DNA of 64,000 bases from Haloarcula hispanica ATCC 33960 (GTDB lineage: Archaea; Halobacteriota; Halobacteria; Halobacteriales; Haloarculaceae), in NCBI RefSeq assembly GCF_000223905.1, contig NC_015944.1:62001-126000 (forward strand), read 5' to 3'. The notes under the pieces are model-generated. The model ran no database searches, was not told the DNA's origin, and saw only the letters and a program-made list of their open reading frames with translations. The number at the start of each line of letters is the position of its first letter. Positions within the stretch are counted from its first letter, which is position 1. Both the position numbers and the translations under genes were made by a program. Shown in pieces: positions 23,365 to 62,932 of this stretch.

Positions 23365-25067
23365 AGCATGTACCGCTGTGCGAGTGGGAGTTCGGAAGCC
23401 GGTTCGCAGGTGACGTGGTCACCGTCGACCCGGACCTCGAAGGTCTCGGGGTCGACTTCGATGTCGTCGGGGCAGTAGCTGTTGTACACCATGTCGTCCT
23501 TGCCGGGCGTGCGAGCGCCCTCGATTGGAACGACACGGGAGTCGAGTCCGTACTCGTCGCCGATGCCGGCCTCGGCGGCCGCCGGCGAGACGAACGACAG
23601 CGAGAGGGCGTGTTTGGCCTTGCCGACCGCACCAGCGCGTTCCCGCTGGAGAATCGGTTCGCAGGTCATCAACGACCCGTTGGCCTCGCCCATCTCCGAG
23701 TGGACCGGGAAGCCGCCCTTGAACGTCATCGCCGGCTTGACGCCGAAGAACGCAGGGTCCCACAGGCAGATATCGGCGAGCTTGCCGGGTTCGAGCGTCC
23801 CGACGTGGTCCTCGATACCAGCCGAGATTGCGGGGTTGACGGTGTACTTCGCGATGTAGCGCTTGATGCGGTGGTTGTCCGCGCCGGTCCCCTCGTCCTC
23901 GGGGAGCGGGCCGCGCTGGGACTTCATCTTCGAGGCCGTCTGCCACGTCCGCGGGATGACTTCGGCCATCCGGCCCATCGCCTGCGAGTCGGAGGTCATC
24001 ATCGATATCGCGCCCATGTCGTGAAGCACGTCCTCGGCGGCGATTGTCTCTGCGCGAACGCGGGACTCGGCGAAGGCCACGTCCTCCGGCACGTCGGGGT
24101 TGAGGTGATGACACACCATTACCATGTCCAGATGTTCATCGAACGTGTTGTCGGTGTAGGGCATCGAGGGGTTCGTCGACGACGGGAGCATGTTCGGCTC
24201 GCCGACCATCTCCATGATGTCCGGGGCGTGGCCGCCGCCCGCGCCCTCGATGTGGAACAGGTGCATGGTCCGGCCGTCGACGGCACCGAAGGTGTTCTCG
24301 ACGAAGCCAGCCTCGTTCAGCGTGTCCGTGTGCATACACACCTGCACGTCCTCGTCCTCGGCGACTTCGAGACAGGTGTTGATCGTCTCGGGCGTCGACC
24401 CCCAGTCTTCGTGGAGTTTCAGCCCGCAGGCACCGGCCTCGACCTGCTCGCGGAGCGGGCCGGGGTCGGAGGCGTTGCCCTTCCCGTAGAAGCCAACGTT
24501 GACCGGCCACGCTTCGGCGGCCTGCAGGAAGCGTTTGACGTTCTCTGGGCCGGTCGTGGTCGTCGTCGCGCCGCCGCCGTACCCGCCACCGAGCATTGTC
24601 GTGATACCGCCCGAGAGCGCGTGTTCGTGGAGCTGTGCGGAGTTGAAGTGGATGTGGATGTCGAGGCCACCAGCGGTGGCAATCTTCCCCTCGGCGGGGT
24701 AGACGTCCGTCGACGGGCCGACGACCATGTCGACGCCGTCCATCGTGTCGGGGTTGCCGGCCTTCCCGATGCCGGCGATCTCGCCGTTCCGGATGCCGAT
24801 GTCGGCGGCGACGATACCGAGTATCGGGTCGATAATCGTCGCGTTCGTCAGCACCCAGTCGAGCGCGCCCTCCGCCTGTGTGACGCCGGGGGCCATTCCC
24901 AGCCCGTCCCGGAGCGTCTTCCCGCCGCCGAACACCGCCTCGTCGCCGTGGGTCCGCAGGTCGTCCTCGACTTCGGCGAACAGTTCCGTGTCACCCAGGC
25001 GGACCTTGTCACCCGTCGTTGGCCCGTACAGCTCGGCGTAGTTCTCGCGGTCGATGTCGCGTGTCAC
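23361..25067 (-). CDS. ureC: Urease alpha subunit UreC (catalytic)
   Basis: The product has 568 residues, normal length. Nickel ligands and catalytic residues are all present: HIH (138, 140), Lys217 in GLKLHEDWG (to be carbamylated), H219, H246 (MHTDT), H272 ([10 protein letters not shown]), flap C319-H320 (VCHHLNP) and D360 (TSDSQAMG). From K217 on, the numbering equals that of Klebsiella urease as I remember it, while HIH is shifted by four. Reaction: urea plus water to two ammonia and CO2, in the cytosol. It overlaps ureB and ureA by 4 bp. Confidence 0.97.
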
Positions 25068-59468: not shown

Positions 59469-60341
59469 ATGGCTCACGCTGAAACTAGTCTGCAGGAGTT
59501 TCTGGAGCGGTCCGATACCGCGCCACCACAACGAATCCTCTATCCGATTTTCGGGACACACGACGACTTCACGTTCGAGACGGCACTGAACATTGCAGAC
59601 GGTGTCGGCGGGGAACTGCTCGTTCTCGATCTGTTCACGGGTGATGCTACCCGGAGTTCGGAGACCACGTCCGTCGGTCGAAAGCTACTGCAGGCGCGAC
59701 TGGACGAGACGCACACCGCTGACGCGCATTTGATCGTCGAAGAGACCGACACGCCACTCAAGACAGCAATCAACGTCGCACAGCAGCGCCACGTCCAGTT
59801 GGCTGTACTGGACGAGCACACGCCCGAATTATTCGGCGAGGGGCTCCGAGGTGACGCAGCCGACCGGATGCGAAAGAAAGCATCGTGTGATGTGGTCTCA
59901 GTCACGTACTCACGGGCTGACTCGGGAATTTCGTCGGTACTTGTCCCGATTGCAGAGGGCACGCATTCCGCCCTCGGCGTTGTCGTCGGCGGCGCGTTAG
60001 CGATGGGTGCAGATGCACCTGTCGACCTCTTCCATGTGTCCGAAACGAAAGACGAGACTGCGGTGGCACGAGCATCGACGCTGTTCGAAACAGCACGAAG
60101 CCGCCTCCCCGAGGCAGTCACAGTAGATACGTGGCATCTCGAAGCACCCGATGTCGCGGAGGCAATTATCAACGAGTCCGCTCACTACAATGTCACAGTG
60201 ATGGGCAAACCGACCCAGAGCCGCCTCCGGGAGTTCGTCACGGGCTCGGTGACTGCGGCCGTCACGGACGAATCCGAAAACGCAGTACTGACCGTCCAGC
60301 GAGATGGCGGTGATGAGGGATTCGGCTTCGAGCGAAACTGA
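59469..60341 (+). CDS. Tandem universal stress-type protein
   Basis: The product has 290 residues from MAHAETSLQEFLERSDTAPP. First half: RILYPIFGTHDDFTFETALN, a degenerate Usp start. Second half from about 155: SSVLVPIAEGTHSALGVVVG and VTVMGKPTQSRLREFVTGSV, closer to UspA with a partial GxxGx9GS loop. It may be a ligand-free structural Usp. It lies beside the potassium genes, like the Usp that follows the APC permease. Confidence 0.83.
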   Translation: MAHAETSLQEFLERSDTAPPQRILYPIFGTHDDFTFETALNIADGVGGELLVLDLFTGDATRSSETTSVGRKLLQARLDETHTADAHLIVEETDTPLKTAINVAQQRHVQLAVLDEHTPELFGEGLRGDAADRMRKKASCDVVSVTYSRADSGISSVLVPIAEGTHSALGVVVGGALAMGADAPVDLFHVSETKDETAVARASTLFETARSRLPEAVTVDTWHLEAPDVAEAIINESAHYNVTVMGKPTQSRLREFVTGSVTAAVTDESENAVLTVQRDGGDEGFGFERN

Positions 60342-60455
60342 CCGATTCAGGCTGAGTGCTCCGGAACTTGACCTTGCTGTGATGCTGGTCTCCGCGGCGC
60401 GACTGTCCTACAGCGAGGCCGCGTCGCTCGCCAGTTCGTATGAACAGATATGAAT

Positions 60456-60577
60456 GGTGGCGGCGAACCGGATTTCCCAGAGGCTCGCGCACTCCAGTAC
60501 TCCCCGGAACGCTGGTGGGCTTATCTTCCGTGTTCGGGATGGGTACGGGAGGCAACCCCACCGCTGTGGCCGCCTAT
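60456..60577 (-). rRNA. rrf: 5S ribosomal RNA (orphan copy)
   Basis: The minus strand reads GGCGGCCACAGCGGTGGGG, GTACCCATCCCGAACACGG, AAGATAAGCCCACCAGCG and GAGTACTGGAGTGCGCGAGC, the Haloarcula 5S sequence as remembered, with about one internal base difference (GGGAAATCC for GGGAAACCC) and a small change at the 5' end. The helix I ends GGCGGC and GCCGCC pair. The length of 122 matches. No 16S, 23S or tRNA is nearby, so it is not part of an rRNA operon in this window. Ends are accurate to 1-2 bases. Confidence 0.95.
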
Positions 60578-60600
60578 ACGATACCTCTGACGGCCACAGG

Positions 60601-60606
60601 TATAAG
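60601..60606 (-). promoter_or_regulatory. TATA box of the orphan 5S gene
   Basis: CTTATA on the minus strand (in TACTCTTATACC) is centred about 26 bases before the 5S 5' end, exactly the archaeal TATA-to-start spacing. The 5S may be transcribed directly from its mature 5' end without processing. Confidence 0.6.
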
Positions 60607-60827
60607 AGTAGCTACTTGGAGACGGGAGCCGTCGAAATATCGTCCAGTCACTCAATGGAACAGGTCTGCACGGAACACGAGACCGTCCCAATCGGTTCGT
60701 AATCGCGTTCCGGTCCGCTAATCCACTTCTCAGGACTACCGGTTAATTCGATATCATCGTCGGGAGTCCTGATCTCGCCACGGCCAGTGTGAACGTTCAG
60801 GCTAGTGTTTAGATCTCAGTCCATCGC

Positions 60828-61445
60828 TCATTCGAACTGGCCGCTGAAGACTATTTCGTCAAGTGGTTTCCGACCGCTCGGCTTTTCGTGCTCTTTGAGG
60901 TCCTCAGGTAACGTCTCGGGATCAGCCCGTTCACCGACGGCGATCATTGCTTCGGCGTCGAATTCGTCTTCTGGGACGCCCAGAGCTTCGTGGATCCGAT
61001 CCCAGTCGAAGCCCGCCATCGGGTGAACAGCCAAGTCGCGCCGGGCGCCCTCCAGAGCGAGATTCTGCCACGCAGCACCGGTATCGAACGAACGCGTCCC
61101 AGCGGACTCGCCGTTGTGCTCGAGGGTGACCTTCGAGAAAACGGCGATGAGCGCGCCAGCATTGCGTGCCCATGAGCGGTTGGCTTCGTTCAGCAGGCCG
61201 AGGAACGACTCCCATTCGTCGTCCTCACGGGTGGCGTAGACGAATCGCCAATGCTGATTGTTGAATGCGGACGGTGCCCAGCGCGCGGCTTCAAACAGCG
61301 GCAGCAGGTCATCTTCAGCAAGCGAATCACCAGCCATCGCACGCGGCGACCAGCGATTAACGAAGAGCGGGTCGACGTCGTGAGCAGGGTCCCGGTGTTC
61401 CGAAATCTCGTCGTCGAGGCTACGGCTGTAATACGTCTGTGACAT
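60828..61445 (-). CDS. Nitroreductase family protein
   Basis: The product has 205 residues from MSQTYYSRSLDDEISEHRDP. VNRWSPRAMAGDSLAEDDLL and ARWAPSAFNNQHWRFVYATR are nitroreductase signatures (FMN-binding RSxR-like and the PSxxNxQPW motif in variant form). FMN-dependent NAD(P)H reduction of nitro or quinone compounds. Frame open upstream, but the family starts at this Met. Confidence 0.88.
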   Translation of the reverse strand: MSQTYYSRSLDDEISEHRDPAHDVDPLFVNRWSPRAMAGDSLAEDDLLPLFEAARWAPSAFNNQHWRFVYATREDDEWESFLGLLNEANRSWARNAGALIAVFSKVTLEHNGESAGTRSFDTGAAWQNLALEGARRDLAVHPMAGFDWDRIHEALGVPEDEFDAEAMIAVGERADPETLPEDLKEHEKPSGRKPLDEIVFSGQFE

Positions 61446-61606
61446 CGTGTACGGTCGTTCGGTACGCCCGCTTATGTATTGATGGCAACACAGCCACAAT
61501 CAGGTGACACCGACGCTATCAGTCAGTATCTGTCGAGTAATAAGATACGAAGTGCCACAGCCACACACGGCTGAGCAACTCACTGCGACTGCAGCCTGCG
61601 GATCGG

Positions 61607-62932
61607 TCAGTGGGCCGATGATGGAACGCCGAGCGAGACGCCGGTGAGGAATATCGGGAGGCCGGCGATAGCAACGACGGCGGCGCTGGCTGTGGCAATA
61701 GGGACAAAAAGCACGCCCAGTCCGAACGGCGCAGGCAGTACCGGGAGTACCGGTAGCATCGACAGTACGAACCCGATAGCGGCCGTTTTCATCGCTAACC
61801 GACGGTTCCCGTGGCCGACTGCGTACCCGGCCGGGAGAAGCACGAACGCGGGTCCAAGAACTAACAGCGCCGACACCGGGGGCGTGAATCCGTCCGTGAC
61901 GACCATCGGAGCCGCCACTATCGTCGCCCCCAGCGCGATGCCCGCTCCGACTACTGCACCGCCAACGACCGCACGATAGCTCGCACGCTCACGGACACGC
62001 CGCTGTGAAAGTGCTATTCCACACACGAACAGCGCAGTGCCACCACCGAACAGCGGTGCCGCTATCCCACCCAACCGCAAAACGCCCGTCGCTCCAAGCA
62101 GCGACAGGGCAGTCGCTAACGCGCCGAACCCGGCGAATGCGACGCCTGCGGAGTCCCGGACTCGTTTGAGGTCCCAATCGAGCCAAGAGAGCCCTCCAGC
62201 GGCCGCGCCGATCAAGAGGGTAAACACCGCTGCGGGGAGCGTGATGTATGCGAGCGCCTTCACCGCCATCACGGGACCGAGAAGTGTTCCGACCGCGAGG
62301 AGACTCAACACCGGCCCAACGGCCGTATCACGGGGGACGAACGTCACGACACGCCCGTCGTTCAGTTCGGTCAGCGTCATCCGCTGGCCGTCGTCTGAGA
62401 CGGTCGCGCCGTCAATGGTCCGCCCGACTCGCATCCCATCGGGGGCAACGATGACGAGGCGGTCAGCGCCGAGGCCGTCGAGGTTTCGATAGCCGTAGGC
62501 TTCGGTAAACTCGCCAGTGCGGACCGCCCCGCCGACAGACTGCTCGGCGAAATCGGCCTCGCGGTAGCGCAGCGTTATGACGCCGTCGCCGGAGACGTTC
62601 GCGCTCAGAAGCTCGGTGTCCCACATCGCTCTGTCGGCGATAGCGGTTCGGAGGCTCTCGTTCGCCCGGAGACGTGCAACCCCATCTGAGTCGGACAGGC
62701 GGTTGTGGACGACCCACGTTGCGCTTCCGTTGGCGTTGACGGCGACGGTAGCGTTGCTGTGGGTGACAGTGACCGAGACGCCGTGGGACTCGGCCGTCGA
62801 TTCGAACGTGTCACCGCAGGCGTCACACAGCGGCCGCGGCGGCGGCGCTGCACCAGCGGGCATGGCAGTGACGAGGAGCGACGCACAGACCAGACAGAGG
62901 AGGGCGAGGTGGTGGAGTCGATGCGGGGCCAT
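61607..62932 (-). CDS. Membrane protein with secreted N-terminal domain and CxxC motif
   Basis: The product has 441 residues. A Sec signal peptide (ALLCLVCASLLVTAMPAGAA) is followed by an exported beta domain of about 190 residues with a CDACGD knuckle (C36, C39) and NGSATWVVHNRL-type strands. From about 205 there are about eight membrane helices. Resembles haloarchaeal proteins of unknown function. The C-half helices are Gly/Ala/Leu-rich without transporter motifs. Confidence 0.72.
   Translation of the reverse strand: MAPHRLHHLALLCLVCASLLVTAMPAGAAPPPRPLCDACGDTFESTAESHGVSVTVTHSNATVAVNANGSATWVVHNRLSDSDGVARLRANESLRTAIADRAMWDTELLSANVSGDGVITLRYREADFAEQSVGGAVRTGEFTEAYGYRNLDGLGADRLVIVAPDGMRVGRTIDGATVSDDGQRMTLTELNDGRVVTFVPRDTAVGPVLSLLAVGTLLGPVMAVKALAYITLPAAVFTLLIGAAAGGLSWLDWDLKRVRDSAGVAFAGFGALATALSLLGATGVLRLGGIAAPLFGGGTALFVCGIALSQRRVRERASYRAVVGGAVVGAGIALGATIVAAPMVVTDGFTPPVSALLVLGPAFVLLPAGYAVGHGNRRLAMKTAAIGFVLSMLPVLPVLPAPFGLGVLFVPIATASAAVVAIAGLPIFLTGVSLGVPSSAH

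Follow-up and report, generated by a model that had tools for sequence, protein, structure and literature searches.

Separate 5S rRNA units are the normal arrangement in Crenarchaeota and are known in some Euryarchaeota, although most Euryarchaeota possess linked 16S-23S-5S genes (PMC8339473; PMC8997704). The unlinked 5S genes of Crenarchaeota/TACK archaea and of Thermoplasma are separate, independently transcribed units (PMC8339473), a property which the solitary gene of Haloarcula hispanica described here is predicted to share. Whereas the unlinked 5S is the regular gene in those organisms, the Haloarcula orphan is additional to three operon copies. Extra 5S genes outside the rrn operon, beside the operon copies, occur in methanogens and Thermococcales and are often tRNA-linked and chromosomal. 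The Haloarcula orphan resembles these in being additional, but it has no nearby tRNA and is found on a megaplasmid. Surplus copies also occur as tandem 5S-5S arrangements at the ends of rrn operons in the Natrialbaceae, but these lie downstream of 23S within the operon. Such tandem pairs end plasmid rrn operons in Natronorubrum bangense and Natrinema sp. (L122:2501-2810 and L111:2501-2807, respectively), and several other genomes of the same order display 5S matches at the same tandem spacing. A solitary archaeal 5S gene is thus a known arrangement, to which the Haloarcula orphan adds a further case. No paper discussing this gene, or any solitary haloarchaeal 5S, was found in the open-access literature searched; the rRNA gene lists for H. 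hispanica count the operon copies only (PMC9138242 Table 5; PMC5368182). Gaps in the RefSeq locus tags at the orphan site (RR_RS02515 in pNG700 and SG26_RS17470 in CBA1115), read from a gene table that holds no RNA genes, point to a 5S gene already being called there by the annotation pipeline.

The DNA analyzed (the window) is a stretch of 64,000 nucleotides, corresponding to positions 62001-126000 of a contig of 405,816 bases, which we take to be megaplasmid pHH400. The genome totals 3,890,005 bases, and its other contigs of 488,918 and 2,995,271 bases are presumably chromosome II and chromosome I, respectively. A plasmid record of H. hispanica N601 in PLSDB matches the query at 100%. Plasmid pHH400 has been described as collinear with pNG700 of H. 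marismortui and as a stable replicon (PMC3528665; PMC4441112). An Rfam search of the window reveals a match to RF00001 (5S_rRNA) over model positions 1-120 at 60577-60455 on the minus strand (84.2 bits, E 1.7e-16), which is well above the gathering score of 38 for this family and exceeds the 80.8 bits obtained for the operon copies. The gene therefore spans 60455-60577, that is, 123 nt in the Rfam frame with +1 at 60577. The initial annotation had recognized a complete 5S gene, without giving its strand, and this full-length match on the minus strand bears it out.

No tRNA genes were found by tRNA scan in the 64-kb window, nor does it contain 16S or 23S sequences, the sole other Rfam match being unrelated to rRNA. 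The latter, at 24622-24914 on the plus strand, scores 81.2 bits against the 5′ ureB antisense RNA family and probably represents conserved urease coding sequence rather than an RNA gene. The 23S genes of H. hispanica are confined to its three rrn operons, and there is no LSU match near the orphan loci of any of the 14 genomes that carry one (see below). In ten relatives that were scanned, the 2 kb on either side of the orphan are likewise free of tRNA genes. The earlier remark that no 16S, 23S, or tRNA is near accordingly holds in H. hispanica and extends, as regards 23S, to the 13 orthologues.

The region upstream of the gene carries a block of sequence common to the orphans, comprising TAGCTAC (-37), CTTATA (-29), and GTGGC (-20). 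The TATA box CTTATA is located at 60601-60606 on the minus strand (-29 to -24) and is invariant and at the same distance in 14/14 orthologues, its TTATA portion occupying -28 to -24 throughout. Beside it is the palindrome GTAGCTAC (60608-60615, minus strand; -38 to -31), placed where a BRE or upstream element would be expected, and between the TATA box and the predicted start is GTGGC (60593-60597, minus strand; -20 to -16); each position of both elements is the same in 13 or 14 of the 14. The strictly invariant positions are A-39, TAGC at -37 to -34, A-32, C-31, CTTATA at -29 to -24, G-20, T-19, C-16, and T-1. Across the 14 orphans conservation amounts to 86-91% between -50 and -21 (in an alignment numbered one base off the exact positions), compared with mostly 40-75% in the flanks and 95-100% in the 5S itself. 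Transcription is predicted to start at 60577-60578 (minus strand), where base -1 is T and base +1 is A; the T/purine form is common to all 14 orphans, base +1 being A in 13 and G in one. The operon copies of the same genomes differ at both positions, with G at -1 in 22/22 and T at +1 in 21/21, and they lack the upstream block; TTATA is absent from the 50 nt upstream of every operon 5S gene examined.

Standard archaeal promoters possess a TATA box centered near -26 and a pyrimidine/purine start. Given this spacing and the start bases, the simplest reading is that RNA polymerase would begin at base 1 of the 5S. The initial annotation had placed CTTATA about 26 bases upstream, which is close to its actual position, and had proposed that the gene could be transcribed alone from its own promoter; the conserved block supports this at the level of sequence. 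CTTATA by itself is not rare (six sites in the window versus 3.65 expected); it is the fixed position across 14 genomes, with the same motifs alongside, that goes beyond chance. Every one of the 14 orphan loci carries the full motif AGTAGCTACNCTTATA, which elsewhere in the genus turns up at only two sites with one mismatch allowed; it is therefore no general stable-RNA promoter. As a candidate regulon motif it was rejected, the genome showing no enrichment (9 near-matches versus 26 for the reversed control). GTAGCTAC is missing from the rrn promoter regions of H. hispanica, although one of these regions has TTAAGTGTGGC, which resembles the TTATAAGTGTGGC of many orphans. Upstream of the 16S gene of one rrn operon (G000:C3 near 213 kb; L126, about 1389-1560) are three successive TTAAGTGT promoter-like repeats, and the other two rrn operons have single TTTATAT boxes, which fits with differing rrn promoter regions.

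The neighborhood of the gene bears on whether the RNA might instead be derived from a longer transcript. An ORF for a nitroreductase-family protein, so annotated in pNG700 and CBA1115, is found at 60828-61499 on the minus strand, its end lying some 250 bp upstream from the 5S gene; beyond it, on the same strand, is a membrane-protein gene (61607-62932). On the other side, a universal stress protein ORF (59469-60341, plus strand; so annotated in CBA1115) is convergent with the 5S. Read-through from the nitroreductase or membrane-protein gene, with excision of the 5S by processing, would be in keeping with these same-strand neighbors, but it accounts poorly for the conservation of the TATA box and start bases. 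In 12 of the 14 genomes the orphan locus is orthologous, with the membrane-protein gene upstream of it, and the intervening genes turn over: the nitroreductase gene is full length in seven genomes including H. hispanica, is reduced to a short remnant in G027, and is absent in G001, G019, G030, and G031. Its variable presence between the membrane-protein gene and the orphan amounts to turnover at a fixed spot. The promoter block is retained in the four genomes which lack the nitroreductase gene, and also in G004 and G011, where the orphan lies in a wholly different context. We regard read-through as extremely improbable. The initial annotation had itself raised the possibility of a longer operon; a same-strand gene does indeed end a short distance upstream, but its absence there in several relatives makes such an operon unlikely.

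To assess its distribution, the gene and its flanks were used to query 32 Haloarcula genomes, of which 14 yielded an orphan of the same type. In an rpoB tree these 14 carriers form one clade with support of 100/100, every sampled member of which has the gene. Presence of the orphan requires a single change on this tree, a value as low being obtained in 0/500 shuffles. The remaining 16 rows of the rpoB tree, which include some incomplete genomes, yielded no such orphan. Among 392 Halobacteriales genomes the pattern TTATA-N18-28-GGCGGCCAYAGC is restricted to the Haloarcula clade, apart from an unrelated chance site in G013; the G030 orphan escapes this pattern through a base change at position 13.

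Three further 5S genes are present in the H. hispanica genome, one following each of its three 23S genes, so that the count of genomic copies proposed in the initial annotation gives the orphan plus three operon-linked genes. The three operon copies (rrnA-C) are mutually identical, and the orphan body is 98.4% identical to them, in agreement with the description of it as nearly identical to the operon type. The first bases of the 3′ flank are also nearly the same, whereas the orphan has no upstream 23S, possesses its own putative TATA promoter, and carries a purine rather than T at base 1. The differences from the operon copies consist of T1A and a change of CG to TC at adjacent positions 106-107; the single internal base change reported earlier is thus in fact two. 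The TC form permits a helix pairing of CCGG with CCGG, which is also favored in thermodynamic folding, whereas the CG form folds otherwise. It had been suggested that the orphan is a second version of 5S. For the body this does not hold, since other Haloarcula (G007, G011, G024, and G029) have TC at 106-107 in their operon copies, and in G007, G027, and G031 the orphan body is the same as that of the operon copy of its own genome except at base 1. Overall, orphan bodies display 0 to 6 differences from their own operon copies, base 1 excluded, and are not consistently unlike them, as a functionally distinct variant would be. The lone consistent orphan-specific mark is A or G at base 1 in place of the operon T, for which a transcription start is a better explanation than a functional difference. 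Of the base pairs in the 5S model, 84.0% are standard in orphans and 83.6% in operon copies, and in two orphans the pair U18-A62 has become C18-G62 with both sides changed. By alignment, the 3′ flank TTCATATC (60447-60454, minus strand) is nearly as in the operon 5S genes (TTCATACT/TTCATACC), and may be a context for 3′ processing or termination; no clear terminator is visible for the orphan.

From these data we surmise, with a probability of roughly 75%, that this is a functional solitary 5S gene with its own TATA/BRE promoter and a start at nucleotide 1, which feeds the common 5S pool and had a single origin in the ancestor of the clade. The orphan is, in other words, probably a working gene making 5S independently of the rrn operons. 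Transcription driven by the TATA/BRE promoter would begin directly at nucleotide 1, making 5′ processing from an rrn pre-rRNA unnecessary, and the product would enter the 5S pool shared by the large ribosomal subunits. The gene probably originated by the copying of a 5S sequence, together with the beginning of its 3′ flank, out of an rrn operon to a site next to a promoter. This would have taken place a single time, in the common ancestor of the Haloarcula clade; vertical inheritance would have followed, the gene being kept by every sampled descendant.

Against a functional gene it may be argued that three operon copies already supply 5S, and that gene conversion with the operons could alone keep the body intact. 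The locus would then be a silent relic, a duplicated piece of 5S lacking meaningful transcription. The three genomes in which the orphan and operon bodies are the same except at base 1 indicate that conversion may occur, and it may help to keep the body uniform. It leaves unexplained, however, the invariant promoter block, which lies outside the 5S, and the constant T(-1)/purine(+1), promoter and base 1 being conserved independently of conversion. Furthermore, several orphans are 2-6 bases removed from their own operons and still paired, and there is no loss within the clade. A silent relic is consequently quite improbable.

Another explanation is that the orphan is a specialized or regulated 5S gene, in which a regulator acting at the GTAGCTAC palindrome would control a supply of 5S, or a sink for 5S-binding proteins, for example under changes in temperature or growth rate. 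A perfect 8-bp palindrome beside the TATA box, almost unchanged in 14 genomes, is consistent with this, and the temperature-dependent use of 16S copies has been studied in H. hispanica (PMC5368182). The palindrome may, however, be just the BRE; by the near-match counts given above it has no counterpart at other genes of the genome and hence defines no visible regulon, and the body is no consistent variant. We consider a specialized role of this kind unlikely. A related proposal, which we hold to be doubtful, is that the clade has partly uncoupled its 5S supply from rrn by means of a palindrome promoter on the megaplasmid that is regulated apart, with the result that 5S output or ribosome make-up would shift with conditions.

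If the gene is functional as proposed, the orphan transcript of H. hispanica would bear A1 and U106-C107, and its share in ribosomes would be directly readable. The classic crystal structure of an archaeal 50S subunit came from Haloarcula, and H. hispanica serves as a genetic model. The orphan provides a natural experiment on the importance of 5S dosage or operon linkage in archaea. More speculatively, the orphan 5S may partly account for the stability of the pHH400/pNG700 megaplasmids.

More widely, a sample of 88 genomes of the order was surveyed, with three LSU candidates scored per genome, and no other clear orphan was revealed among the 5S matches listed; judged by eye, the surplus 5S matches in this sample, the Haloarcula orphans aside, are tandem copies or lie at contig ends. 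Plasmid-borne 5S genes in Halorussus, Natrinema, Halomicrobium, Natronorubrum, Haladaptatus, Halorubrum, and Halomontanus were considered as orphans and discarded, 23S being directly upstream in every one checked. Genome G022, which falls outside the clade, carries a different solitary 5S (L136:4877-4998, equivalent to G022:C5:135376-135497; 82.1 bits) that is about 91% identical. It is without the TATA block, and no 23S or tRNA is found within 5 kb of it. Its helix I carries the change GACGGC/GCCGTC, which is apparently compensated, and the gene is possibly an independent or imported orphan.
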